64,000 bases of DNA from Pohlia nutans (Eukaryota > Streptophyta > Bryopsida > Bryales > Mniaceae). Under the pieces are notes generated by a model. It did not search any database and had not been told where the DNA came from. It saw only the letters and a list, made by a program, of their open reading frames with translations. The stretch spans positions 36,874,372 to 36,938,371 of the forward strand of contig CM040089.1 in NCBI GenBank assembly GCA_022496805.1, given 5' to 3'. Both the position numbers and the translations under genes were made by a program. Numbering within the stretch: position 1 is the stretch's first letter; every line of letters starts with the position of its first letter. Below, in pieces: positions 7,135 through 50,878 of the stretch.

Positions 7135-8271
7135 TCAAGTGTAGTACCAGAGGTTGCCATCAGAGGGCGGTGAATGCTCAATGGAGTCCACCATGTTTGC
7201 AAGATCAGCGTGAAGCATGAGCTCCGGGAAGCGGTGGGCCTCATCGAGAGGCTCCAGGCATCCAAACTCAGCGTTGACCCAGTCTTCCACGACGTTAACC
7301 CTGCCATATGGTTCGGCGTTGACCCCAGCATTTGCCTCGACGTTAACCATGCCATTTGGTTCGGCGTTGACCCCAGTATTTGCCTCGACGTTAACCCTGC
7401 CATATGGTTCGGCGTTGACCCCAGCATTTGCCTCGACGTTAACCATGCCATTTGGTTCGGCGTTGACCCCAGCATTTGCCTCGACGTTGACCATGCCATT
7501 TGGTTCGGCGTTGACCCCAGCATTTGCCTCGACATTGACCATGCCATTTGGTTCGGCGTTGACCCTAGCATTTGCCTCGACGTCGACCTTAGCGTTTTCC
7601 TCGACGTTGGCCCTGACATTTGAGTTGGCGTTGACCCTGGCAATTGGCGGGATTGCGCAAATGGAGCTCTCGTGGGTGACGATCTCTGACTGTAGGGATG
7701 GCAGTGGTGGAGATGGTGAGCGTTTCGTGGTCTCGGGTGCGGCAGTTTGGCAGGCAGCTGCGGCCGCAGCGGCCACGGCTTGCACGTCGCGTGGCGTGGT
7801 GCAGCGCGGGAGGTCGGAGGGCGCGGCGTTGGGGAAGTTGAGCGTTGCGGAGGCGCCGCGCAGGCAGATGGTCGCGGCGTCGTACGCCTTGGCCGCCATC
7901 TCCGCAGTGGGGAACGATCCCAGCCAGATGCGCGTGCGTTTGTTGGGCTCCCGAATCTCCGACACCCACTTCCCCCACGACCTCATGCGCACTCCCTTGT
8001 ACGTAGTCGGTGGCCGTGTCGCGGAGTCGTCCTCGCAAATTGTCACAGGTGAGCTAGAGGACGGCGACTTCCTCTTCTTCTTCTTCGATCGCAACTTCAA
8101 AAAGCTCCTGGCTCCTCGCTTGGCATCGCGAGGTTGGGCACCCTCCACCATCCCTGTCTCCTCTGAATTCCCAACCAGCTCAATCTCCTCACGCTCAAAA
8201 TTTCGCTTCCTCTTCGCTCCTTGAGTGATCGAACGCACACAATTCCGCTTCAAACACCCTGACCTCTTCAA
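7135..8271 (-). CDS. AP2/ERF transcription factor, DREB type, with C-terminal 16-aa repeats
   Basis: A single-exon ORF of 378 aa. A basic Lys/Arg cluster at 61-68 is a likely nuclear localisation signal. One AP2 domain spans about 91-147, with [19 protein letters not shown] and [18 protein letters not shown]; the Val after GKW and the IREP segment suit the DREB branch (A-4/A-5-like). An Ala run lies at 166-173. Residues 238-332 hold five full copies and one partial copy of a 16-residue repeat (consensus [16 protein letters not shown]), preceded by weaker 8-residue relatives. The C-terminus NLWYYT resembles the LWSY-type ending of some DREB proteins. DREB proteins bind DRE/GCC-type promoter elements and often act in cold, drought or salt responses. 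The exact subgroup and the role of the repeats are unknown. Confidence 0.92.
7276..7560 (-). repeat. Coding minisatellite, 48-bp period, in the ERF gene
   Basis: Near-identical 48-bp units encode the 16-aa repeat. Unit differences are mostly single bases, such as CCATTT versus CCATAT, which changes Asn-Gly-Met to Tyr-Gly-Arg. Because the period is a multiple of three, the opposite strand also stays open over this stretch; those frames are shadows. Confidence 0.9.
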
Positions 8272-8355
8272 TAATCTGACTGCTTAAGGTCCCAAAACGA
8301 TATAGTTTGAATGTGTGCTACAATCAATGCAATCAATCACAAGTATGTTCAACAT

Positions 8356-18939: not shown

Positions 18940-20700
18940 TTTCTACTTACAAAAAGTTGTAGAAGTGGTACATATTATAGAAATTTTTAGTTTTGTTCAA
19001 AACCCTCAAAGATTTGGGAGTTAGACAATGCCTTGAGGGTTTGTTTCGAGGTTTGTTCTTTTTAGGGCAACTTTGAAGTATTTCCGTTTCTAGAAATGGA
19101 GTTAAAGACTAAAATGACAAAAAATAAATCATAAAATGCTTAAAATAAACATACAATCATAAAACAAAACTTCTAATAACTTCTAATATCACAGCTGGAT
19201 TTGGAGTGTTTGTGTGATGTACGCCTTTGGTTCTTTCACTAGTAGGAGTTGTAGCTTAGTCTGCATGGCGTTGTTTTAGATTGACATTGGGTTAATCCCA
19301 TGCTCTATAAGCATGGACCTATCATCATGTTCATCAAGCATTAATAGGCTCATCTAGTACCAATAGGACTTTGGAAGATATCACTCAAGATATCATTCAA
19401 GATAGTGAACATAAGTCATTCAACAACTAGAACCCCATAGCCGGAGAACTCAAGGGAGCTCTAGATTTATTCCACCTTCTTCACACTTACCTTTTTTTTT
19501 TTTTTTTTTTTCCCAAAAAAAATGAAAAAAATAATAATTATAAAAGGTTATAAACATGAAAGGTTATAATTGATTCTAAACGGAATTGGCCGATTATAAA
19601 GGGTTATAAAATAGAAATAATTTAAAAATAAAAGATTATGGTTATGATTAATTCCCAAAACGGAATTGTCTGATCCACTCATAGAATTCTTTTCACCCAA
19701 CACTCTAGATAAATCTAGAGAATAAAGAAATGTCATCCAAAGGCCAAGTTTTCATGTATAACATTTTATAACACCTTCTATTACAGTATGGAAAACAATG
19801 ACAATGCTCCACTATGATTCTTTAAGAGTCCCAACTATTATCTCTTCGTTCCATCATAAACAAACCTTATGATTATAGATTGAACTTTAGCTAATAGATG
19901 ATGTTCATGAAAGGATCATCCACTCACACCAATCCACTGACATGCATTGACATAGTAAAAGGTGGAGTGCTACAAGTGCTCAAGAATGTTATGTGTCAGT
20001 GCTAATAACGGTTGTCCATTGGGATCTGATGGTTCAATTTAAAAACTTTGACTTAGGGAATTTTCCACGCATGCATCTGCCAATGCTTTCTATGCTTCCT
20101 TTCGGATTGACATGAAATGTTGGCCCACATTGAGAACGTTCATTCATCTCTTTGCCTTGTGTCACTTTGACATGGAACTCTCCACGCGTCACATTTGTAG
20201 GCTCATACCAATGACCTTCCGATCTGCATTTCAGGTTTGGCTCATCGGAGAGCAAAACCTCCCAATTCTGAATGTGGCACAAATGGAAAGGATCGGAACG
20301 TCTAGTTTCGGAAGGTGCAGATGCTCAATGGAAAACCGCCCTCACTGATGAATTTGTGCTAATTTGTGGCTGAGGCAAAATTCAATCCATTGAGGATGAT
20401 TGTTCACCGTTCTTCGCATTTACGTACTACTGTTTCACATCTCTGGCAATGATTGAACACTAAGAAAAATCCACCAATTTGTGCGTAACTGCTCAATGAA
20501 GGTTGACTTACTACTCATTAGAGTTGACGTCCTCAATTAGGTGAAAACATTATGTGAACCAACGATTGTTTAATTGACTTTCAACTCAGCAAGATTCATT
20601 TGGAGCTGCATCGACCCACTTTTCACAACTACCATAATCAATCAAGTAGCTAACAATCAATGAAACTTCTCACAATTTCTGACTTGAGCAAAACCAGAGG
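18940..20700. other. Intergenic, AT-rich, no supported gene
   Basis: It contains a poly-T run near 19493-19512 and a short GGTTATAA repeat cluster around 19545-19610. Small overlapping open frames at 20034-20348 lie on both strands and lack any recognisable domain; they may be the 5' flank of the lipid transfer protein gene. Confidence 0.4.
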
Positions 20701-20722
20701 CAATCTTCTGGATTCACAGTGC

Positions 20723-20728
20723 TATAAA
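20723..20728 (+). promoter_or_regulatory. TATA box candidate for the lipid transfer protein gene
   Basis: TATAAA lies 97 bp upstream of the start codon in a GCTATAAAGC context, a suitable distance for a short 5' UTR. Confidence 0.5.
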
Positions 20729-20825
20729 GCGTCCACCATCTTCCCTCAACTTCCATCTGCATCAGCCTCTAGATCCTTCTCCGAAGTTCATTAGTTTCAG
20801 TCCATTGCAGCAACGGAGCGTCAAA

Positions 20826-21619
20826 ATGAAACTCCAGGCGGCGGCTGCGCTGTGCGTGGTGCTGCTGGTGGCGTCGGAGATGGTGGTGACGACGACGTGG
20901 GCCGCGGGGTGCGATATCATGCAGCTGGCGCCGTGCATCGCCGCAAGCAAGGACGCCAAGGTGACGCCGTCCAAGCAGTGCTGCAGCAACGTGGCCAGCA
21001 TGGGCAAGGGGCTTGCAGGAGCGCAGTGCTTGTGCTCTCTGCTCAGCCACCCGCTGGCCAAGGCGCAGGGCGTGGTTCTGCGCATCGCCCTTGCCATCCC
21101 CCACAAGTGCCACATTCCTGTCCCCCCAGGCTTCGTTTGCCAGGGTACGTACGTAGTCCTCCACATCATGGACATGTACATTCTACTCCATTTGTGCAAT
21201 CTAATCATGGGTTAACTATGATCTAGTAAATCATAATGCCAGAAACCACATTTCGAATCCAAAGACCACAATATTGCTGAAGTTAGAGACCATGTTACAG
21301 CCAAAGACCGCGTTGCCAAAGCCGAAGATCGCGTTGCCATGACCGAAGATTGTAGTGCTATAACCAATGACCATGACTTTCGACAAACATGGTCTTCGGC
21401 TTCGGCAATGTGGCCTTCATCTTCGGCTGTGCAGGGTCTCTAGCTTCGGGAATATTGTGGTCTTTGGATTCGGCAATCTAGTGAACGTAACAAATTGTAT
21501 TCCATAGTGAACCCCATTGGGAGGCTACGACAGGGGTCATTGATGAACATGAAGTTGACGTTGCTGATCACCCTTGTATGTCTGGACGGTCTGCAGGAAT
21601 CCGCGTCCCTGGAAGCTAA
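20826..21619 (+). CDS. Non-specific lipid transfer protein, eight-cysteine, secreted
   Basis: Two exons, 20826-21144 and 21597-21619, encode 113 aa ending in CQGIRVPGS. Residues 1-27 form a hydrophobic signal peptide with probable cleavage at AAG/CD. The mature protein carries the eight-cysteine motif C29-x7-C37-x14-C52 C53-x14-C68-x-C70-x24-C95-x9-C105. Four disulfides in this fold form a helical barrel that binds lipids, and such proteins act in cuticle building or signalling. No GPI-anchor tail is seen. The intron near the 3' end of the coding region is a common nsLTP position and here contains a ~220-bp hairpin. Family is certain; the subtype (DIR1-like or other) is open. Confidence 0.93.
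21254..21472. mobile_element. Hairpin (foldback) element in the LTP intron
   Basis: CGAATCCAAAGACCACAATA at 21254 pairs with TATTGTGGTCTTTGGATTCG near the right end (about 21453-21472). The arms are filled with diverged GCCGAAGA/TCTTCGGC units. The whole 219 bp can fold back, with a loop around 21370. Confidence 0.8.
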
Positions 21620-24796: not shown

Positions 24797-24871
24797 TACT
24801 GTAGCTTATGAAACACTACTGTGTGACCTTCGTAGTCATACCAAAGTCCCGTTTCACATGTAGCTTCAACT

Positions 24872-24960
24872 TTGGTCCCATTTAAATTATTTTTTCACAA
24901 TATGATCGTTTAAATTTGTCGTTTTAAAAACAATGAATCCTTGGTCCTTTAGAGGTTAAG
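24872..24960. mobile_element. TTAA MITE, family A, right part only
   Basis: From TTTGGTCCCATTTAAATTAT to CCTTGGTCCTTTAGAGGTTA it follows the right third of the full copies, ending at about 24960. The left portion is missing. Confidence 0.6.
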
Positions 24961-25002: not shown

Positions 25003-25698
25003 TCAAATTTCCGCTTCAGAGGAAATATACACCTTACCTTGAGATAATCTTGAAATGGCGGGACGACTATCCTGCTCAAGATCGCCGCTGATCACCACCT
25101 CGACGAGGTTGGAACCTTCCGGCACAGCTTGTTCGCCATTCTCGGCATTACCTTGGTGTCCCTCTCTGCGTGGATGCGCCAGACATGCGCGACAGAGCGG
25201 GCAAGTGTTGTGTGAGCGGAACCAGGCATCAATGCAATCCGAGTGGAATGCATGAGAGCATTCGGGCAGCAACCTCAGACAGTCGTTGGCGTCGAATGCA
25301 GCCAAGCACACGGAGCAGTCCAACTCTTCCCGTATTCGCTCAGGCAAATCTTTATACTGAATGAAAGGCAGGGATGCAACAATCTCGGGGTCAAGGCCAC
25401 GCTGAGGTTTAACCGTCGAGTTGTTTCCAAGACGCGATGAACGACGACGAGGAATGTCATCGTCGTCCACCGCAGGCCGGATACACCGTTTGAGGAAGCC
25501 CGTGGCGAAACCTACAACAAAGAAGGATAGTACTATGGCCACGATTACCGCCGCATATGCAGGATTGAACTCCAAACGAGTTGGCTCCGTATAATCCGTC
25601 ATCGTGACATTCATTGAAGGATTACTCAGTGCCATCGCCGCTTGAAAAAATTCACTGCTACTTGTGTTGCCAATATTATTCTCCATCCTACTTTGCAC
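25003..25698 (-). CDS. ATL-type RING-H2 E3 ubiquitin ligase, membrane-anchored
   Basis: An intronless ORF of 231 aa. One transmembrane segment lies at about 48-68 (AYAAVIVAIVLSFFVVGFAT), followed by a basic RRRSSR stretch and the ATL GLD motif (GLDPEIVASLP, 101-111). The RING-H2 finger spans 128-169 with ligands C128, C131, C147, H149, H152, C155, C166 and C169. It also has the Pro before the seventh-eighth ligand pair and the Trp typical of E2-binding ATL fingers. The layout TM-GLD-RING and the lack of introns fit the ATL family, whose members transfer ubiquitin from E2 to targets, often in defence or stress signalling. Met5 is an alternative start. The substrate is unknown. Confidence 0.94.
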   Translation of the reverse strand: MQSRMENNIGNTSSSEFFQAAMALSNPSMNVTMTDYTEPTRLEFNPAYAAVIVAIVLSFFVVGFATGFLKRCIRPAVDDDDIPRRRSSRLGNNSTVKPQRGLDPEIVASLPFIQYKDLPERIREELDCSVCLAAFDANDCLRLLPECSHAFHSDCIDAWFRSHNTCPLCRACLAHPRREGHQGNAENGEQAVPEGSNLVEVVISGDLEQDSRPAISRLSQGKVYISSEAEI

Positions 25699-30200: not shown

Positions 30201-33200
30201 TCTGCTTCAAACAACTGCAGAATACACAATGAAGACATTCAATAACAACTTCGGTTCAAAGTAACTCACTTTGCAGTTGCCTTTATTATCTACCTTATTG
30301 GGAATATCACATTAAAGTCCTCTAAAAACATCTGTATATAAGGGACTTCAATAAAGCCCCTTTTCAAAATGGGAGGGATGTGAGAAAACACAAACTTGAA
30401 AGCTCCAAAATACCATCTCAGTTCTCACCTCAGCTCCTTGCAGCTGTTTCAAGTTTCTTGCTCTGTAGACATTTCTCACCAAGGCGCGAACAGTCGCACC
30501 TTTGCCCACTAGGTCTTGAACTATCAACCTGCAAAAAGGTTTAACACAAAATGAGTGACAGCCTTCCGGAGCAACATATGAAACTAGAAAATTATTGACT
30601 AATTCAAACAATCAACTTAGAAATCTCCACACATCAATAATGTCACATCTGAAACCAATCCAACCTTATAGACAACCCTACAATAACATACTTTTTTGAC
30701 TCTAATCTCACCTTCAAAATTTTCATTAAAATCTTGAAACAGTCAATATTAGTGAAGACATTAGAGCTATCCTTTTCACTCAAAGTCTGGCAACCTGATT
30801 CCATTAAAAATCATGAAACAGTAAATTTTTCGAAAGACGTTAAAGTTCTCCATTAACCCCGAAAGGACCAAGAAGTCCAGATTGGGCCCCATGTATTTTT
30901 AAGCAGTTTTGAATAGGTCATAATTGAAATTCCTTTTGTTCAAATTTATTCAATTTTTGACCAACACATGCAATATTCTTCACTGATATACAATTTAGTT
31001 CCATCTAAATTATATTTCCACAATATAATCAATTGAATTTGTCAGTTTAAGACCATGAATCCTTGGTCCTTCAGGGGTTAACTCAAAAAAGTCAGTCTAT
31101 CAAAGCTTCCACCTAATTCCATTAGAATTCATGAAACAATCAAGTTTACTGAAGACAATAGAGTTAATTCTTGAACTCAAAAAGGTTCTAAGTCTGTCAA
31201 AACGTTCAACCTGAAAAGTTGAAAAATGTGTTTTGAGTTGAAGGAGAACTCTATTGTTACATAAGAGGGAGGTGCAATTCAAGTGAAACACACCTGCCAG
31301 TAGCACCAGCTGCGCCAGCAACAAGAACAGTCAATTCTGTGAAAGGACCGTCTGCTTCTTGCTGCGAATCATCATCTCCATCTTCTCGAACACCCTGGTA
31401 TCTTTTCACAACGCTCTTCCCAGCAGGTTTGTATTTCCCCCCCACGAGCTCTTCACCTTCGTCGTCTGGTTTCTGGCTCTCGGATTTCCTCTCAGACCTT
31501 ACAGCGTAGGATGATCGTTTACCAGGCGCCGTCATGCCAGTCGCTTCTTCGACGGCTTCTATAATCGAGTCACTCAGCTTGAAAACCTCGTTACCGATGG
31601 CTGCCGCAGCATCGATGGATGCATTCACCGCCTTCTCAATCGGCTCTTGCACCCTGTCAGCTGACTCCTGTGCTCTCCTCACTGTGGACCGCACCGCTCG
31701 TTCTGCACCCCGTTCTACTCTTCGCGCTTCTTGGCCCAGTTCCTTTGATGCTTCCCTCGCCTGAAACCTCATCACACAACAATGATCAACGAATATGCAA
31801 AGCTCGAAGACTTTGATTGATGTAAAAGCCAACTTTTCATTTGTGTTCCTTTGTTTTGACATTCAATATTGACTTCAAGAATGAGGTGGCATATACATGG
31901 CTCCTAGCTAGATGAGAGTTAGCTCTTTGAGGTGGATTGAACACTTGTTACTTCAAATGCGTCATAATAAAATGAGTTTGTTATCTAATTGCATATGCAT
32001 CATAATAAAATGAGCTTGTTATCTCATATCTAATTGTATATGATATTGCTTCAGTGCCTTCAATTGAGAATATTAGTTGAAAATATAAGGTAGTTTTCCA
32101 TTCCCATGGCTTCCCGTGAGTATGCTTCAAATAAATCTATCGCTTGAATAGATGTATAGTACTTGAAGAGGACTTCACAAAGTCAGCGACTTTTGAGAAT
32201 TCTGTAAGGAAAATTTCATATCTTGTTCGCGCAATATTCAAATAAGACTTACTTAAGTGCATTGAAATCCTCTTTAAAATGAGCACAAGGTCTACAGATT
32301 GTTTTGGTATATCTAATAATAACGAACTTGATCATCAGCTGAAAGCCATTGGAATAGAAAACGTACTTTCACCCCTAAAGGACCAAGAAGCCCAAATTGG
32401 GCTTCATGCCTTTTTTTTAGCAGTTTTGAGTAGGTCTCATGTGGACTTCCTTTCATTCAAATTTATTTAGTTTTTGACCAACACGTGCAATGTTCTTCAC
32501 TGATTCTGGTGTTATAATATTTGGTCCCATCTGAATTATATTTTTCATGATGTGAATGATCGAATTTGTCATTTTAAAACCATGAATACTTGGTCCTTTA
32601 TGAGTTAATGTGGAGTTGGTAAACAACAAGAAAAGGGAAAAAAGAATATGTTCACCCCAGAACTAACCTGCTTGGAGACAGCCTCGCCAGCCTGAGATGC
32701 AACCTTCTGGCCCTCCTTCCCCACCGACTGAAGGTCATCGGTAATTCTGCTACCGGTCTCTCGCAACCGCCGGCCGGCGACCTCAGCATTCTCTTCCACA
32801 ATGCCGGCGACGTCACGCGCGGTATCGCCCGCCTCCTCCACGCCCTGCTGTATGTTGTCCGCCGCGCGCTCCGCTTGCGCATTCACGACCTCGGCGCTTC
32901 CGCCCACGGCCGCCTCGCCAGCCTTCCGCACCTCCTCCAAGTTCTGCCCCACGCGACGCCCCGCGCGCTGCACCCTCTGCCCGCTCGCGTCCGCGGCGTC
33001 GCGCGCGTCGCCCGCCACGGCCCGCGCGGACTCCTGCCCCTCCTCTCCTATGTCGCCCAGCTCGTCCCCGACCCGCTTCCCTGACGTCTCCGCTCTGACC
33101 ACGCTTGGGTCGTCACGGGAAACCCCGGCCACGTCCGCTACCGCACCCGCTGTCTCCGCGGTCCGGTCGCCTAACGACTTTTCCTCATCATAGGACGTCT

Positions 33201-37875: not shown

Positions 37876-40800
37876 TCAACTCACTGACCCTGCTGTAGAT
37901 TTCAGTTCGGTGCTTGGTTCAACACTGGGGATCTTCGCTTTACTTACCCTAAGAGAGTTGCTTATTTTTGGTCTAGAGTTTTTGTACTTCACAACATCAA
38001 AAGGTTGGTGAGCAATTTCTAAAGCTTTGGCTGACACGTTCGAGTTCTCTGCTCCGCCTAGCGTCTCAGTAATGACAGCCGATCCTAAACAAATACCATT
38101 CTGATAAAATGCAGCGTACTGTCCTGGTGCTAAACCTTGATCATCTTCATTCAAGTTTACCACTGCTGAGATACTGGGTTTACTGTTATTGTCCACTTCC
38201 AACTCCATCCTACAATCATACAACCTGGGACCATGGCGGACCTTGCATTGCAAGCTGGAAGTGTCTGCAGGAGGAGACCCTGAAAACCAATTGAATGATC
38301 CCACACGGAATGCTCGTCTGCGTTTATCCTCTGAGAAGTACTGCCGAGATATGAAAACCACATTATTCACGATGTCTTTAGCCACAACAAACCAGGGTCC
38401 ATTAGACAAGCCGAGGCCTTGACGTTGACCCATCGTGTAAAACCAGAATCCGTTGTGAAGGCCCAGAAGCTCCCCCGTCTCAGCCTCAACTAGCCGACCT
38501 GGCCTCTCACCGAGGTGTTTCGCAATGAAATCACTAAACTTGACCTGTTGCAGAACACAACACCTGAGGGCAAGGCTCCAATTGAAAAAGACATTCGTCC
38601 ATTACAAATGCGTGCTATTGTCCTCTTTAGGGCAGAACTTACTCGTCTAGAGTTTTAACCCCTAAAGGACCAAGAAGCCCAGATTGGGCTTCATGTTTTT
38701 TTAGCAGTTTTGAGTAGGTCCTATGTGGACTTCTCTTTGTTCAAATTTATCTGTTCTTTGACCAACGCATGCAATGTTCTTCACCGATTCCGATTATATA
38801 AAATTTGGTCTCATCTGAATTGTATTTTTCACAATATGATCAATTGAATTTGTCATTTCAAAACCATGAATCCTTGGTCCTTTAAGGGTTAAAGAAGTTT
38901 ATAAATGATTCTCATCCTATCAAGCTTATACATTTTACAATTATACTATGTGTAGGCGAATTCACGTACCTTGCCAAGAAAACAAATGCCTTGCGAGTCT
39001 TTACGATTTTTGTTGATCAGCCCCATAACCTCTGCAAGCTGTCGCACCTCAGTCTGTCCAATCACAAATAGTCAGAAGTGTTTCAAGTAACTGAGGCCCA
39101 TAAATTGAAAAGCAACCTCATTGTGATCACCAAAGGAAGATATAAAAAATTCCGCAAAAAAACATTGGGAGTTACACAAAAACTCAAATTGCTATATCTG
39201 ACTTCTAATACATACGACAGATACAGTTCTCTGGGTATGAAAGTTCGACTGAACTACTAACCTTGGTTAATCCACCGAGAGGGAAAATGAGGCGTGACAA
39301 CTGTTCCTGGCTCAGATGTGAGAGGAAATACGTCTGATCTTTCAACTGTTCACATATTATACACAAATGACATAAGACTAACAAGAAGCATAACAAACCC
39401 AAACGATTCACACAAACTGAGAGAGCCGTACTCATCAATATATTCAAAAGAGAAAGTGACTACAAGAAATGAATTTGACCTACCTCATCTGGACACAACA
39501 ACAATTCAGTCCTCTCTTCTTTGCCATTGTCGCTGTTGAAATTTTTTCTCACCCGTGCATAATGTCCAGATGCCACGCGGTCAAACTCTGCATCCTTGAT
39601 GTACTCCAGAAAGGCTCCTGAAATATTCAAGATATACATCATTGTGGGTGCTGATCATCACAATGAACATGAAGGACCAAAATGGTGTATAAGACTCCCA
39701 GTTGGGGGTACTTATTAGATTACTCTTTATGAAGTACAGAGAGTCCGCCCCCAACACCAGACTATATGTTCCAACCATAAAAATGATCAATCTCATGAGA
39801 TTTATCAAGAGACGTACCAAACTTAACGCATGTATTGCACAGGATATCTGGGTTTGGTGTGCGACCTGCTTGAATCTCAGATATACAATGCGACACCTGT
39901 GACGAGCAGAATGACTTACTCTCCAAAACTCATATCCAGAAAACAGAATTCATGTACCAAAATTGTTTTAAACGTTGATAAAGCTCCTGCTCGTTTACAA
40001 AGCGTTAAAAATTACTATGGCAGGATTGATTCGTAAAGTACAGAAATGCTTATTCACTAAGAAACTTACCACTAGCGTCCAGTACTCATCTGTGAAATGC
40101 ACCACACGGAGTTCCACCCCGACCTGGATTAGTAACATCACAAGATACATCAGACATGTCCATGTGACAAGTACTTCAGCAACAAGTGACAGTCCTACTC
40201 AAGAAAATAGTCTTAAGTCTACAACAAACCCTCAAGCAGGACTCGTGAGGAGATATATCATTGACGTTAAAGCAAAAATACGAGAAGAGTTGAAGTGCAG
40301 AAGAAAAGATGAAGGATTGTTCACCTCGTCACACACTGCCTGTGCATTCCTCAAATCGTCTTCCCAAGGACATTCTGACCAGAAATTCTCAAAATCCTCC
40401 TGCGAAAAACAAGATAAAATATTTTTAGGGATTTCAAAGACAAAATATCTCCCATTGCGGCTAACTTGAATACGAACATATTCTAGTTATCCATGAACAA
40501 TGTTGACATAGTTTACAATGCTTCAAAATAATCTTGATTGCTTTTAACCTAGATGGCTAAAATCAAGCAGAGCTGTGCCGAACCTGAAACCAGATTTTGA
40601 GGTAAAAAGCAGTGCAAGAATGGCCTGCAGCACACAACAAGCGCAATGCTACGCTGCTATCCACGCCCCCACTCAGCAACACTGCCACGTTCAAATTTCG
40701 ACCCACTTCACAGCATTCCAAAGCGCTTTCACTGCTCTGCCAATCAGCTGCAATTGAAGGTCCCAAATTCCCATCGACGCGCTCCTCAAGAGCATCAAGC

Positions 40801-42385: not shown

Positions 42386-45019
42386 ATGCTGAGTTTGAGA
42401 ATGTTGGTTGAGCTGCAGCCAGATTTTGACGCCTTGGCAGCTTTGAGGACTGAGGGACTCCAACCTCCAAACCCTCGCGTGCGACCTTTGGATAACCTCA
42501 ACAAGTGCCGTCGCATACTACCCGCAGTAAGTCTCTCTAATCTATTCTAATCCATGCAGTAATCAGACGTTAACATTGATTATGTCAAGCCAATTTTGGG
42601 AGCCATTTTCTAGTGTATTGGAAATCCAGATGGAATGTCATGAGTGTTCTGAGTTGAAAACATGAAAGAGGTCACTTTGTTTAATGTAAGAATTCACAAG
42701 CGTGAACCTGGTTCTTGAGTGGCATTTAAACATGTCAACTCTGGTAATTGCTACTCTTTCATCTGGTATCATGTTTGTGGTATTGTGACATTAACATTGG
42801 AACATCGCTGATCATTACGTGGCTACGATTGGCGAGGCTGTTTTGTAGGCGATTGGCGAAGCTGTTTTGACTACTGTTTATTTTATTTTTTTACATTGAA
42901 TCTCGGTTGTTGCAGGATGTTCCAGAGTCTCTTGCCAACGCACCAATACGAGAACCGCGCTCTCATGAATCCATTGCTGCGCAGCAACGTGCTAAGGTCT
43001 CACTGTTTCTTCTTCCTTTTTTTTCTTTGCGTTGATATACATTTAGCCCATCTGATTGATCTGTTTGTGTCCTATTGTCGTTCTCTCTACCTTGCTTCAA
43101 ATTGTATTCTACCCTGTGATTGTAGAACGCAACCTAGTTCCAGATGAAAAGCCCTAAATTCTTTGTTTTTTCCAAAAAAATTAAGGGTGTTGGTATGGTT
43201 CGTTCATAGTCAAGAATATTGAGTTTTTTACAGGCTCGCACATCATTGATATTGGAGAAAGCAGCAGAGCGAGCTCGTCAGGCAAAGATTCTTGACACTA
43301 TCGCAGGTACTAACAGCAGAACAAGACCTTTGGGAAGCAACACGACTTTTGTTCTTTTCTTTACATAAAACTCTGTAAAAACTTGGTTGTCCTTTGTCAG
43401 TCAGCTAGTATCGTCTCCAGCAACTGTAACCTCCTCTTGCAGATAAACTGAGAGAGGGACCGCTAGGTTTACTCGTGAGATGCTATGAAGAGAGAGCACG
43501 CATCCAGGTTTGGACTCGTCACACACATGGCATTCGAGGCACAATGGTGGGGTTTGTGCGAGCCTTGGACAAGCATTTTAACATGGTACTTCCATCTTCT
43601 CTGTGAAGGTAAACCCCATTAGTTTAGGTTCATGTAAGTAAGACATCCGAGAGGAGAAAAATCAAGGACACTGTCAATGGTTTTCTAGGAAGATTTTTTC
43701 CGCAAGACGTAAAATTCTTACATCTTATTTTGTCATGGTCGGTCATACAAAGTAGTCATTCTGTGAAGCTCTAAGTGAATTGGCTGGATTTTGGGCAGGT
43801 GATGCATGATGTTGATGAACAATATTCAGGTAAGAGTTTTGTCTTCGCCATATTCTGATAATACAGATGGAGTGCAGCGACGTTAGAGGATGACATAATG
43901 GTCAGATGCTTTTGGTGTCAATATGACATTCTTAGACGAGTCCTAACTTATTTTGTAGATGTTATCTTCATTCTCGTAAGGATGATGTGATAACTTCAAG
44001 TACTAAGGTTTGAGTACGATAGTTCTTATGTGTTTGTGCATGATTTGTTTTCCTAGTCTGTGGTGCGACGCACGTGCATTTGCTGAACTTTCTTTACCAT
44101 TTATGTGATCAATTACAACATAAAGATGCTGTTTCTAATTGTTGATTTTACTGAATATGGTAGGCTGACGAGAATTACATATGCCATTTATAAACCGCAC
44201 TTGTCAATATAAAACCTGCTCTGACAACCGTGACCTGATTTCAGTTCTTCGCCGTGTACCTCGGCTTGTGAACAAGCGGGGTCGTGTGAAGCTCCCGCAA
44301 CTCGAAAAGGAAACGGCTGAGAACCTCGTAGAGGATGAAGCAGGAGAAGATTGGAACGGGAATCAGAAGAAAGAACAAACTTCAGTTGGAGTTGAAAATC
44401 TCACTGAGAGGATGAAGGAACTGAAGGTGTTTTCTAAACTGGAATATCGCCGGCGACATCTCAAACAGGTTTTGAAACATGGTTGCTTTTGTTGTAGGTC
44501 AATTGCTAGCTGTAACCAGCATTTGTTCACGATAGTATGAGTTATATTGTTAACCCCTAAAGGACCAAAGATGCATGGTTATAAGATGACAAATTCAATT
44601 GATCATATTGTGAAAAAATGTAATTCAGATGGGATCAAACCTTAGATCACCGGAATCAGTGAAGAACATTGCATGTGTGGATCAAAAAAACAAATAAATT
44701 TGAATTTGAAGAGGTCTACGTAGGACCTACTCAATATTGCTAAAAAAATATACGAAGCTCAATTTAGGCTTTTTGGTCTTTTAGGGGTTAAGTTTGGTGG
44801 AAGATTGTCTTTGAATACTTATACACGTTCTGACCTGTTTTTCTACTTAGGTTTTATTATGTAAAATTGGAAGCATAGCGTTCATATGGGACATCTAATC
44901 GTACATTTCCATGCGTAGAAGCGATCCCCTCTTGACTATTTTGTTCTGCTTGTCTCCTGACAAATGTGCAGGTTTTTGTTCGTGGGGACAGCGTAGTCAT
45001 GGTCCGAAAGCTGGTGTAA
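42386..45019 (+). CDS. LSM11: LSM11-like Sm protein (U7 snRNP type)
   Basis: Seven exons, 42386-42526, 42916-42996, 43234-43306, 43443-43585, 43799-43829, 44245-44468 and 44972-45019, join in frame to 246 aa. An in-frame TAG lies directly before the start ATG. The N-terminus (QPDFDALAALRTEGLQPPNP) resembles the conserved N-terminal stretch of animal Lsm11. The Sm1 motif follows: GPLGLLVRCYEERARIQVWT, then RGTMVGFVRALDKHFNMVMHDVDEQY. A ~75-residue charged linker precedes Sm2 (QVFVRGDSVVMVRKL). A long insert between Sm1 and Sm2 marks Lsm11, which replaces SmD2 in the U7 snRNP that processes histone mRNA in animals. Whether this plant has a U7-like particle is unknown. Intron 6 holds a family A MITE. 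Confidence 0.9.
44550..44791. mobile_element. TTAA MITE, family A, in LSM11 intron 6
   Basis: TTAACCCCTAAAGGACCAAA at the left and TTTGGTCTTTTAGGGGTTAA at the right, TTAA at both ends, 242 bp. The interior is in the opposite orientation to the MnmA copy. Confidence 0.9.
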
Positions 45020-46271: not shown

Positions 46272-49200
46272 CTACTGCTCCCATCTCACTCTCTTGTTCT
46301 TCCAGACCTCCACCATGCCAATTGGCAAGCTTCCGGGCCTCACGACCTCCAAGCCACCCCACTTGCTCGCCACGCCTGCACCGTAGCAAGCAAAAACCCA
46401 CCGCCAGTACGCGCTCATCTCCACCCATTTACTGCAAATTCCCCCTCCAGTGTCCGCTTCCTGGAATTTCTCTGACAGCTTGCGAAGCTCAATGACCAGG
46501 TGGGATGGCTCAGTGACACTACTTGCTAGCATATAATCCTCCGGCACAGAGAGCTGCTCGTCGTAAAACTGCTTCCAAGACTGCAGGCGCTGCTCGCGAT
46601 GCTGCACGTACTCCTCGTATGAAAGAAACGGCTCCGCTATCAACGTTTGATTCGACGTGTAGGGCTTTTTGGTGGTGCCATTCTCCCAGCGCTCCTGCAA
46701 CCTGGAGGACGATTATGGTGATTCTAGTTAGTATTGCTATTCTATGTGAGGGGATTTTCAAAACAAAATTTGATCACGAGTCATGAGAACGAGGTTGACT
46801 TTGGATGCTCTAATGCGCATTTCATGTGCACAAACATTTTAGAGGAAAACATTGATTGGAATGTTGTGATGATTGTTTGAAGAAACATAGTAAGACAGAA
46901 GAATCCATCCTCTTGATTGAATGGTAACTCAAAATTCTAATTTCTTTACATCAAATTTGAAGAATTTGTGATTCTTTACACGATATGCTCGGTGTACATT
47001 AGTTTGAACTAGAGATTTTTCATTTGAATTTAATTTGCTTGTTACGGACATGTGACATATTCAAGTGGATGTTGTATTGTTTTTTTCTTGAATGAAATGG
47101 ATTTTGATTAGATTTTGGCAGCATGTCCCAGTTCATTCTAAATTTCTAACACATCCAAGAACCGATAATTTTTTTGGAGAACCCGTCCACAAAATATAAT
47201 TTGTGAAAAATCAACACTGACCTGGAGTACTCGTCTCTCTCGTTCTGCAACGCCTCCTCGATCTGCTTGCATGGATCCTCGCACAGCCATCCTCGGATGG
47301 CGAACTGTGGGATGAAAGCAGATTTCACCTCCAATCCCCCCATGGCGATCGGCCACATGTACCAGCCGGGCGGAATGTCGCGCACACCGAACCGCTTGTG
47401 GATCATGTCCGCGAGATACTCAATTACCGAGCCCCCGTGGTCTGGGAAGAGCGCAACGTGGATGCGTTGCAATGTGGAGATGACCATGTCGACGTGCCGT
47501 TGTCCGAAGCATTGCGCAGGCGGCGAGCCGAAGTTGCTGACGAAGAACGACGCGACGTACTTGTTGTAAGCTTGAACCCACGCAAACACCGAATGCTCAC
47601 ATGCTTTGAGTTGCAGCTTGAGCTCATCGATGTGAACGTTCACTTGGTCTTGGTCGATGACGAATTGCCCGGATTTTTCGAACTTGAGAAAACCCCATTT
47701 AATCATCCCTTTGGGAAGATCTGGATGCAGTGGTTGCCCTACAGACACGGATCCCGTCTTCTCGTCGTTGAATTCTAAGCCTACAAGACGAGTGAAGGTG
47801 CTCATTTCTTGCCACGCCTTCACGCACGAAGCAGCATCCCTATGCCACAGCCAGAAATCGTCATGTATGCGGTAGAGGAATAGCCCGTCAGCTCTCTGGT
47901 TGACAGCGTAGTCCATGCAGAAAAGCAGAACTTCCCCAAAGAAATCGCCCAAGCTGTGACTCATCGGAATTCCTCGTTTCCGAACTTGGGTCGTCGCCGT
48001 TGGGCCGTCCGCGACGAACTTGAGTGGCGCCGCGAGAAACTTCTGGAAGAAGGTGAGCCAAACCTCCGGAACGCCGAAGAATTTGAGCGCGGTCATGATG
48101 GAGCTGTGAGGCAAGCTCGGGCCGAACCAGGCGAAGTCGGAACGCACGACTGTGAAGTTCTTGTGCAGCGTTGTGTTGAAGAGACATTCTGTTGTTAAGA
48201 TGTGCAGAAGCGATTGCTTGATTTCCACCGCCGTCTTCTCTCCCGGTATCTTCTCACCTTCCTCAGCGTAAGCAGCTCGCTTTACCTCGAGGCTCTCCGG
48301 CAGTTGATTCATGAAGAAAATCTGCAGCTGGGTCGCGCATCTCGCCTCATCGATTGTTCGTGGCTCGGCGAGAAAACGACGCTCGTTGAATTCTCTCGGA
48401 TTCTCCGCCAAGAAATACTCGCGCCGCTCGTTTTCGTCTCTGGAGAGAGGTTTCGTCGGGGGGCTCCACGCTTTTGATCGAAAGAAATCCTTGAAATGCC
48501 GTTTGAAATGGGTCGCCCACTTGAGTCCCAGCCAGTGCAAGAAGATCGCCTGCAGAATCTCCTCGTCCATGTAAATCCTGTACTTGCCATTGATTTGCCG
48601 CCGCATCTCAACGGGAATGGCTGTACCATCGGGGCTCCAGGACCACGAACTGAGCGATGCGAGATGCATATTGAGCACATCTGTGACCTCAGTGAGGACA
48701 GTCGCGTTCTGCGTGAACTCCTTGAGCGTCTCGCGTTTCTCATTGGATAAAAGGTCATCCACCAAGAGAGAGGAGATCGTTAATTCGAGGTCGTGCACAG
48801 TGAGCTTCGTGGCGAGCAGATTGTCACTGTAATACTCAGCCCATTTACGTATCGAGGCGAGTTCTTCCTTGGCAGCTTTCGATGAGAAAAGATCGTCAAG
48901 GTAGGCGGCTATGGCGACGGTGTCGGTTTCTTTCGCGGTGAATACAATCGACTCGAACATGGCGCGCTGCTCGTGCATCTCCTTCCTTCCCACCTTCTCG
49001 AATGTATCGATCTCACCGCCTGTGGACTTCTGAGGGTTAGCAATCCACTCGCTCAGGAGCCTTCCAAAAAGCTCGGCGTATTCGTACTTGGCCTTCTCTG
49101 TGTCGAGGTACTTGATGAAATTGGTCTCCCATTCTCGCAGAGTTGCCTCGCCAATGCTCGGGTCGTGCTCAGCCTGGACCAGAAATTTCTTGACGTTCAG

Positions 49201-49428
49201 AAGCTGATCGCTAATACTGAGGCGAGTGTTAGAGCTCACATGATCCACGCTGCGCCACGAGTTGATGCCATCCAGGAGGATTTGCACCCTTTTTCTTGAG
49301 CTGCTAGCAGTGCGTAGCGATGATAGAGTCTTCTCTCTGTGCACGTTGAAGTCGGAGAGTTGCTTGGAGATCCCCTGGAGCTTCGTAACAGTAATGGAGT
49401 TCAACGTTTCAGACAGCGATGACGACAT
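46272..49428 (-). CDS. rvt: RVT: cellular reverse transcriptase-related protein
   Basis: Two exons, 49428-47222 and 46701-46272, join in frame across a 520-bp GT-AG intron to about 878 aa. The N-terminal ~400 residues are helical with no known enzyme motif. The reverse transcriptase core follows: motif A SDFAWFG with D431, then GVPEVWLTFFQKF; motif B RGIPMSHSLGDFFGEVLLF; motif C YRIHDDFWLW with D523 and D524; then LEFNDEKTGSVSV. All three catalytic Asp are present. The DD box has His before it instead of the YxDD of retroelements, as recalled for RVT proteins of fungi and other eukaryotes. A C-terminal extension ends GGLEVVRPGSLPIGMVEVW. There is no endonuclease, RNase H, gag, LTR or poly-A tail. 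RVTs are single-copy host genes reported to prefer NTPs; their role is unsettled. MSSSL is the first in-frame Met. Confidence 0.9.
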
Positions 49429-49439
49429 GGTTGCTCTCC

Positions 49440-50878
49440 AATCGCACCCACAATCTAGTATAAGTCAAATGACAAGATGAAAACACATTCAGTTTCCAAG
49501 ATACAAAAATGACGTAGCAACTTGACTCGTACACTTGTCAAATAGGCGTACTACCAAAACCATCCCTACATAAAAGGTCAATCAAACCCGCTAATCAATC
49601 CAATGTACTTACAAATTTAACGATCAAAATAACGCCCTACAAGACCGATCAACCCAAAACTCGTGTTGCATATAGTAGGCCTGCATCCACTCGGTCGAAA
49701 CCATGATGCCTGAAGATCGGACAGAAGTAAGAGAAGTTAGCATGCTGCAATCGTACCTCACATCAATTGATTGATACACATGTATCAATATCCTCCAGAT
49801 GTCATATATATTCCGCAGCTTTCAGGTTCCGAAATCGTAAGAAGTTGCTCCACTTTCCGGGATCGAACTTGCAGAACACTCCCGCGCCGTGCGACACACT
49901 CCCACACCGTGCGACACACTACTCTTACACTAATCTTACTCCGAACTCCAGAAAAAGCTCAAGTTTTATCCAGATTGTCCACTTTTACCCTCAAATAATC
50001 AAACAAGATCCAGCCGGTGTGATCAGATTGACAAAGACAAGGGATGATTCAACTCAGTTGTGCTGAAACAGCTACAGTAACTGACTCATTCAATCAGCCT
50101 CTCCGGTGTCGAGAATTGGAACTAAGTTAAGCTTATCACAATGTGATCACCTGAGGGGATATCAGTTTTAACAGTAATAAGTTAATCTGACATCACCACG
50201 TTTCAGCCTCTCCTTATTCTGCACCAAATCCCAATATAGTGGACATCTGTATGTACATTAGATTTACATATGTCAATTGCCAGGCTTCAGTTAAGTATCG
50301 TGTATCTTGTTTGCCGGAATTGGACTGTTTCATTATCAGTTGTGGTCTCATAAGAATATTTTATTATTATTGTTGTTATTGATATTCCTGTTGCAGCAAT
50401 AATTACATTAGAATTCGATCACATCATGTTTCACGTGACATCTCCGTTCTATGACTTTTTCACTTGTGACAAAATAATTTAATGTATGAAGGCCTAAATT
50501 ACACGTGATTTGATATTAACGAGTTCATTTTGTTTTAAATGTGATAGAAAGGAAACTACACTACTTTTTGTTAATAGTGAGGGAGGGTAATATGTGAAGG
50601 TGACACTAAATTGTAAAATCAGTGAGATTTGAAGATTTCAGGCATTCAGTAAAATTTCAGTTCTCGTCGATTTCATGATTTTGCAAAATAGAGTGTGTCT
50701 TTGGAATTAGTACCATATACACTATTAGCAAAAAAGTGGGGTATTTTTAAATCAAACTTATACCAAAAGACCTGTAAAATTTTTATTGGAATTATCTTGG
50801 CATATAGTAATTGCATAGAAAAATATAATCAATTTCACTTGATTCAGAGACTTCTAAAATTGAATATAGTGTCTATCA
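49440..50878. other. RVT upstream flank and intergenic stretch
   Basis: This presumably contains the RVT promoter. At about 49878-49920 a CCGTGCGACACACTCCC segment is duplicated. A 99-aa frame (49767-50066, +) has no recognisable domain. No transposon termini were found within 1.4 kb of the RVT start. Confidence 0.4.

Follow-up and report, generated by a model that had tools for sequence, protein, structure and literature searches.

Host reverse-transcriptase-related genes of the RVT class were reportedly described by Gladyshev and Arkhipova in 2011. To our knowledge, hosts keep very few reverse transcriptase (RT) classes as ordinary genes; RVT is among them, and its role is unsettled. Here we analyze a stretch of 64,000 nucleotides from the moss Pohlia nutans (contig CM040089.1 of assembly GCA_022496805.1; hereafter the window), which carries a gene, rvt, that on the evidence of its sequence is a complete RVT-class host RT gene and a new example of this known class. 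PMC10680173 describes published RVTs as capable of non-templated polymerization, with catalytic residues that are required for stress relief, purifying selection and frequent horizontal transfer. Other RVT texts word the reaction as non-templated polymerization or terminal transferase activity. Among the bacterial UG/DRT reverse transcriptases, the Class 1 enzymes so far studied need no nucleic acid template to synthesize DNA, partly with protein priming, and DRT9 performs protein-primed poly-dA synthesis (PMC12483538, PMC12489045 and PMC13174585).

The explanation that best joins our results is that rvt is a working-looking RVT gene, under selection and present in few copies, which is kin to the bacterial group UG37, would encode a multimeric non-templated polymerase with a role in stress, and has an old link to fungi. 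We assign this joint explanation a probability of roughly 0.82; its parts are graded below.

Identity of the gene

A search with the full-length protein returned 349 proteins at E≤1e-3 among 7,992 scored candidates, and the best 120 of the 349 are listed. All but three of the listed relatives (117 of 120) cover 91–100% of the query. Those with names come from mosses (Ceratodon, Physcomitrium), fungi and the rotifer Philodina, and the best listed matches are annotated as hypothetical, reverse transcriptase-like or reverse transcriptase domain-containing proteins. Identity to the window protein is 64–74% for seven moss-clade proteins, three of them named (826–877 aligned residues), 59% for Maublancomyces gigas, 50–51% for Tuber, Choiromyces and Morchella, and 40–43% for a further 16 fungi and for Philodina roseola, the rotifer. 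The Philodina reverse transcriptase-like protein G3KGX1, which we take to belong to the RVTs described in 2011, is 39% identical in the search and 42% in the alignment.

Profile scores separate the gene from other RT open reading frames (ORFs) of the same genome. The sole Pfam match of the window protein is RVT_1, at 21.7 bits and thus short of the 29.6-bit cut-off; two other RT ORFs score 97 and 104 bits with the same profile. RT_UG37, the PADLOC model PDLC03776 for a group within the bacterial UG/DRT reverse transcriptases, matches the first exon at E=4.3e-76 (∼255 bits), spanning residues 11–706 and positions 8–657 of the 778 in the profile, compared with 25.5 and 26.7 bits for the two other RT ORFs, in which only the RT core is matched. 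With NCBIfam, three of four proteins gave a weak group II RT match (E 0.004–0.012) and P0012 gave a meaningless one, while a PHROGs scan of the first exon found no family at E≤0.01. Because the relatives are end-to-end and the profile scores set the gene apart from other RT ORFs, we place it in the RVT class. An earlier reading made from the DNA letters alone (the sequence-only reading) had proposed this identity and expected RVT-like best matches instead of LINE, LTR (long terminal repeat) or Penelope elements; both expectations hold, with full-length relatives that include the Philodina RVT-like protein.

As a side observation, two Aspergillus proteins, P0138 and P0142 (1,346 and 1,398 amino acids), combine a precomputed cytochrome P450 domain with an RVT match. 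This pairing perhaps reflects gene models that fuse neighbours, or a conserved neighbourhood.

Gene structure and predicted fold

The gene lies on the minus strand and has the following parts:

49428..46272, minus strand: rvt gene, with ATG at 49428, two exons and a stop codon TAG that ends at 46272; product of 878 amino acids
47222..49428, minus strand: exon 1, codons 1–735 and the first two bases of codon 736; encodes the fingers, palm and thumb and, before them, the helical N-terminal part
46702..47221, minus strand: the single GT-AG intron, 520 nucleotides, phase 2, splitting codon 736 (Arg, AG/G)
46272..46701, minus strand: exon 2, the rest of the C-terminal extension and the stop codon TAG (46274–46272)
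48136..48138, minus strand: codon of catalytic Asp 431 (counted from the ATG) in motif A, VRSDFAWFG
47857..47862, minus strand: codons of catalytic Asp 523 and Asp 524 (counted from the ATG) in motif C, YRIHDDFWLW
49030..49428, minus strand: N-terminal helical region of the predicted model, about residues 1–133, outside the listed structural matches
48229..48477, minus strand: insert between helices of the predicted model, residues ∼318–400, partly of low confidence; candidate loop 2a

The splice junctions read TCCAG/GTCAGT ... CGTCCTCCAG/GTTG, and GC content is 69% at third codon positions of rvt vs 33% in the intron. The C-terminus (...VWKNKRVRWEQ) agrees with the nearest relatives as far as the stop codon. 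D431, D523 and D524 are invariant in two alignments (A1, 75 rows; A3, 51 rows) and are kept in all four genomic copies, and each of the 102 exon 1 columns that are ≥95% identical among 74 relatives is intact in the window gene. Neutral simulation at 10, 15 and 25% amino-acid change yielded a mean of 5.0, 7.4 and 12.0 stop codons, and 2, 0 and 0 of 300 runs, respectively, contained no stop at all; the window gene contains none. Since neutral change produces stops and nearly all listed homologues (117 of 120) span 91–100% of the protein, the open frame is not a product of chance. About 450 bp upstream of the start codon is a two-copy, 20-bp GC-rich tandem repeat (49876–49920).

The AF2 model of exon 1 shows a confidently predicted RT fold with the catalytic residues in place; it has a predicted local distance difference test (pLDDT) score of 87.3 and a predicted template modelling (pTM) score of 0.81. 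Long N-terminal helices are predicted at residues 3–39, 44–61, 69–88 and 94–130. The listed structural matches of this model start at residues 132–210, so that the N-terminal part not spanned by any of them comprises only about residues 1–131. An insert of ∼80 residues (318–400) is predicted between a helix that ends at 317 and one that starts at 400. Loop 2a is described as an RVT feature in PMC5718144, and the modelled insert is a candidate for it. Telomerase and Prp8 were considered as closer relatives and rejected, as both appear among the structural matches merely as general RT-fold kin.

For the gene itself, the sequence-only reading was exact to the base in its coordinates, single intron, 878-residue product and open frame, and the three catalytic aspartates and the His-Asp-Asp box are where it had placed them. 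Its N-terminal region of ∼400 residues was too long, given where the structural matches begin.

Relation to bacterial RT_UG37 and proposed reaction

The RT_UG37 profile also matches the RVT-like proteins of Philodina (E=1.8e-74) and Rickenella (E=1.7e-82). Judged from these profile alignments, RVT and UG37 are homologous along most of their length.

Bacterial relatives were sought directly. Two pattern scans of genome contigs for bacterial RVT/UG37 sequences gave 24 and 22 stretches, none of them a relative by tblastn, and a pattern scan of viral contigs gave 18 stretches, none a relative. Similarly, tblastn of protein P0012 against plasmids and phages returned no match at E≤1e-3. The scan patterns were derived from eukaryotic sequences, so these negatives do not demonstrate bacterial absence. 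In the literature, covered as titles, starts of abstracts and partial listings that leave out the 2011 and 2018 RVT papers and the UG/Abi survey, we did not find RVT equated with UG37, and no novelty is claimed. A search on UG37 listed no paper that, by its title, concerns reverse transcriptases. Sections 9 and 10 of a 2025 preprint on the origin of telomerase do not discuss RVT, though the 2011 RVT paper is cited there (PMC12632851).

The reading of rvt as a template-independent, stress-induced polymerase draws on published RVT work and on the chemistry of the UG/DRT family. By analogy with RVTs of other hosts, the moss protein would form multimers, start synthesis from a residue of a protein or from an end already present, and add nucleotides without a template by means of its three aspartates. 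The gene would be switched on by a translation block or a shortage of amino acids, and would aid survival of that stress. We regard the multimeric, protein-primed, template-independent reaction in the moss protein as fairly probable. Induction by translation stress is a more tentative proposal, to which we lend slightly less than even odds.

The alternative that survives best concerns this reaction and is compatible with RVT identity: the enzyme might be a templated polymerase, either an RT or an RNA-dependent RNA polymerase. We consider it unlikely. Its RT-like structural matches reflect a common RT fold and not a common reaction, and the activities published for RVTs are of the non-templated or terminal transferase kind.

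A wider reading, in our judgement doubtful, is also conceivable. Eukaryotic RVTs may have branched off from within the bacterial UG/DRT reverse transcriptases (UG37), been acquired by fungi and passed on to mosses. The plant enzyme might still produce nucleic acid that is linked to protein and needs no template, and so raise an alarm or apply a brake when viruses or microbial antibiotics block translation. In a plant it would then be the equivalent of a bacterial immune polymerase. The antiviral link in this proposal is drawn from characterized UG/DRT members and not from the function of UG37 itself.

Copies in the genome and selection

We searched 697,796,988 bases of the polyploid Pohlia genome in 332 contigs, with the window on contig C5; copy counts are lower bounds. 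At least four rvt loci are present: C5 (the window), C6 (96% identical to the window), C16 (67%) and C15 (65%). A genome profile search recovered the same four loci at E≤8.3e-72 and, far behind them, 12 weak RT matches (7.1e-5 to 8.5e-4). The flanks of C5 and C6 are collinear, as are those of C15 and C16, making two homeologous pairs. The C6 copy is intact (877 amino acids), and so is the C16 copy, with an ATG directly before the aligned start. The C15 copy (L012) has a frameshift near codon 94 in a frame that is open elsewhere, and shows signs of relaxed constraint; it is perhaps a recent pseudogene, or else the assembly is wrong here. Each of the four copies has a predicted phase-2 intron in roughly the same position, with an offset of about three residues between one lineage and the other. 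PMC9247546 reports a Pohlia nutans assembly of 698.20 Mb with 22 chromosomes and 313 scaffolds, and synteny of adjacent chromosomes after a recent whole-genome duplication.

Constraining all four copies into one clade is strongly rejected (log-likelihood, lnL, 234 lower); thus, C5/C6 and C15/C16 are old paralogues. In a 25-row tree with these copies, C5/C6 group with P0001, near the Ceratodon copies, and C16/C15 group with the unnamed P0014. Because the pairs group with different moss-clade proteins, two rvt genes were probably present in the moss lineage before Pohlia and Ceratodon split. A literal single-copy definition of RVT does not fit this genome; the loci are two homeologous pairs and not a multicopy element.

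The ratio of non-synonymous to synonymous divergence (dN/dS), calculated by the Nei-Gojobori method, is 0.283 for C5-C6 (48 synonymous and 42 non-synonymous differences, p=7e-9), 0.295 for C5-C16 (p=4e-45), 0.277 for C6-C16 and 0.447 for C16-C15 (intron codons trimmed). Compared with other moss-clade proteins, the window protein has private changes in 3 of the 138 highly conserved columns vs 21 of the 99 most variable ones. The lineage is under long-term purifying selection. Additionally, synonymous divergence between C5 and C6 is uneven, at 0.15 in codons 1–265 (48634–49428) vs 0.04–0.06 elsewhere, with changes at 28 of 203 synonymous sites in codons 1–265 vs 20 of 457 in the rest (p=6e-5). 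Local gene conversion or codon constraint could account for this.

These data bear on a second alternative, that rvt is an RVT but its window copy is a redundant homeolog in decay, with no job of its own. The C15 copy is already frameshifted, and shows an excess of private non-synonymous changes relative to C16 (27 non-synonymous and 11 synonymous vs 14 and 18; Fisher p=0.029); the window copy has 12 non-synonymous and 7 synonymous private changes. Against decay, the frame, splice sites, catalytic residues and all of the conserved exon 1 columns are intact in the window gene, and the low C5-C6 ratio covers the whole gene. We judge decay of the window copy improbable, and prefer a selected, working gene.

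Two statements of the sequence-only reading stand in part. It had allowed that many near-identical copies might exist, and these were not found among the loci recovered, although the gene is not the sole copy. It had called the gene probably selected with dN/dS away from 1; the ratios of ∼0.28–0.30 bear this out for the lineage, while the counts on the terminal branch of the window copy are too few to say the same of that copy.

Affinity with fungi

Moss-clade proteins and Pezizomycetes were grouped at 98–100 support in each of three trees (58, 35 and 21 rows); in these trees the moss proteins fall among RVT-like proteins of fungi and the rotifer, with Pezizomycetes nearest. The position within this group varies from tree to tree. 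In the 58-row quick tree the mosses and P0008 adjoin the Maublancomyces group (support 82); in the 35-row careful tree the mosses with P0008 (97/99), the Maublancomyces group and P0022/P0028 share one unresolved fork; in the 21-row tree of named rows mosses and Maublancomyces are joined at 88/93; and in the 25-row tree with the Pohlia copies P0008 is shifted to an unresolved fork. Placing the mosses outside Ascomycota is rejected by the approximately unbiased (AU) test in the 21-row tree (lnL 46.06 lower, p=9e-6). Maublancomyces is 56–59% identical to the seven moss-clade proteins vs 53% to Tuber and 51% to Morchella.

The root of these trees, on basidiomycetes and the rotifer, is an assumption. 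Under that root Pezizomycetes adjoin other Ascomycota, as vertical descent within fungi would have it, and therefore a direction from fungus to moss is favoured. Taken together, the trees suggest an old fungus-moss transfer of rvt; we are less sure of its exact branch and direction. The moss lineage would have received rvt from a Pezizomycetes fungus, or had it in common with one, before the split of Pohlia and Ceratodon. In the literature, covered as titles, abstract beginnings and partial listings exclusive of the 2011 and 2018 RVT papers, a Pezizomycetes-moss transfer of RVT was not found, and again we claim no novelty.

A third alternative, vertical inheritance from early plants without any fungal exchange, would suit a window copy that lies among plant-type genes, and bryophytes are sparsely sampled in this analysis, with two named moss genera. 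The high support for mosses with Pezizomycetes, the AU rejection of a placement outside Ascomycota and the greater closeness of Maublancomyces to the moss-clade proteins than to Tuber or Morchella all stand against it, leaving it very improbable beside the transfer.

Lastly, an RT of a mobile element (LINE, LTR or Penelope), or a fragment of one, would also bring the RT fold and catalytic motifs, and the 12 weak matches show other RT ORFs in the genome, but we give this origin next to no credence and reject it on Pfam (a lone sub-threshold RVT_1 match), repeats (no framing repeats or element ends found around rvt within 44–52 kb), copy number (copies in collinear homeologous segments) and the predicted introns kept in all four copies, which retrocopies would lose.

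Weighing of the joint explanation

Several observations weigh against the joint explanation of rvt as a selected RVT with UG37 kinship, a non-templated reaction and a fungal link. The proposed mechanism is borrowed from fungal and bacterial RVTs. The nearest listed database protein is 73% identical to rvt, vs a 95% match for the neighbouring RING gene. Published wording makes RVTs single-copy, yet four loci occur here, one of them frameshifted. The few private changes of the window copy are compatible with weakened constraint, and in fingers and palm alone the C5-C6 ratio is 0.49 (p=0.1). Regarding origin, grouping the four named Pezizomycetes without the mosses is only marginally rejected (AU p=0.044, 21-row tree), the four as one clade are not rejected once the Pohlia copies are added (p=0.106, 25-row tree), and Ascobolus, a cup fungus, stands separate on a long branch in the 35-row tree. 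Additionally, RT_UG37 at E≤1e-3 matches 3 of 14 control genomes and the 12 weak RT places of this genome. Since the profile is unspecific at that threshold, what carries the UG37 claim is a match of 255 bits along nearly the full length.

Neighbourhood in the window

A Pfam scan covered eight ORFs of the window, four of which have clear plant-type or housekeeping domains:

7135–8283, minus strand: AP2 ORF
20688–21215, plus strand: lipid-transfer protein
25003–25698, minus strand: RING-H2 protein, with best named relatives in Physcomitrium and Ceratodon
37876–38601, minus strand: last two domains of what is presumably a tRNA thiouridylase-like protein

The AP2-domain ORF contains an in-frame 24/48-bp tandem repeat (7290–7647). 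A repeat of ∼240 bp that resembles a miniature inverted-repeat transposable element, with terminal inverted repeats of ∼20 bp (TTAACCCCTAAAGGACCAAR), occurs at 459–699, 30853–31081, 32368–32608, 38655–38892 and 44550–44791, with a partial copy at 24868–24959, and recurs in the sequence on either side of the C6, C15 or C16 loci. Another repeat of ∼540 bp (2065–2606) is also present beside the C16 rvt copy (copies 90% and 81% identical in L009 and L011).

Significance and comparison with known systems

For specialists, the main interest lies in the UG37 link, which is the most interesting handle, in the cup-fungus affinity and in a plant host for testing the role of RVT. Three intact copies at known chromosome positions make that role testable in a plant, and targeted gene removal is routine in the moss Physcomitrium. 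The UG37 match ties the RVT class to bacterial defence RTs, whose chemistry, be it protein-primed, template-free or RNA-templated synthesis, is currently being worked out and whose assays are directly applicable. The fungal affinity would be another example of genes exchanged between mosses and cup fungi.

Among the listed structural matches, the RTs of R2 and LINE-1 (LINE, long interspersed nuclear element) have the top Z scores (18–26, over model residues ∼132–726). Sequence identity in those rows is, however, 10–14%, and Pfam finds no endonuclease or other domain in the moss protein. DRT9 (UG28; PDB 9ioa, 9nlv and 9vma) differs in having chains of ∼480–500 amino acids that act with a noncoding RNA, and aligns to the moss model only from residue 206 onward. 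UG37 is closer, as ∼650 of the 778 profile positions match the moss protein, the N-terminal helical part included, although the moss gene is nuclear and carries an intron. The closest known system is RVT itself. The moss genome differs in its four loci, one of them frameshifted, vs the single copy published, a difference that reflects an old duplication and a genome duplication. Shared with RVT are end-to-end homology, an RT core with the intact aspartate triad, extensions at both the N- and C-terminus, and a host gene with an intron, purifying selection and no sign of a mobile element.
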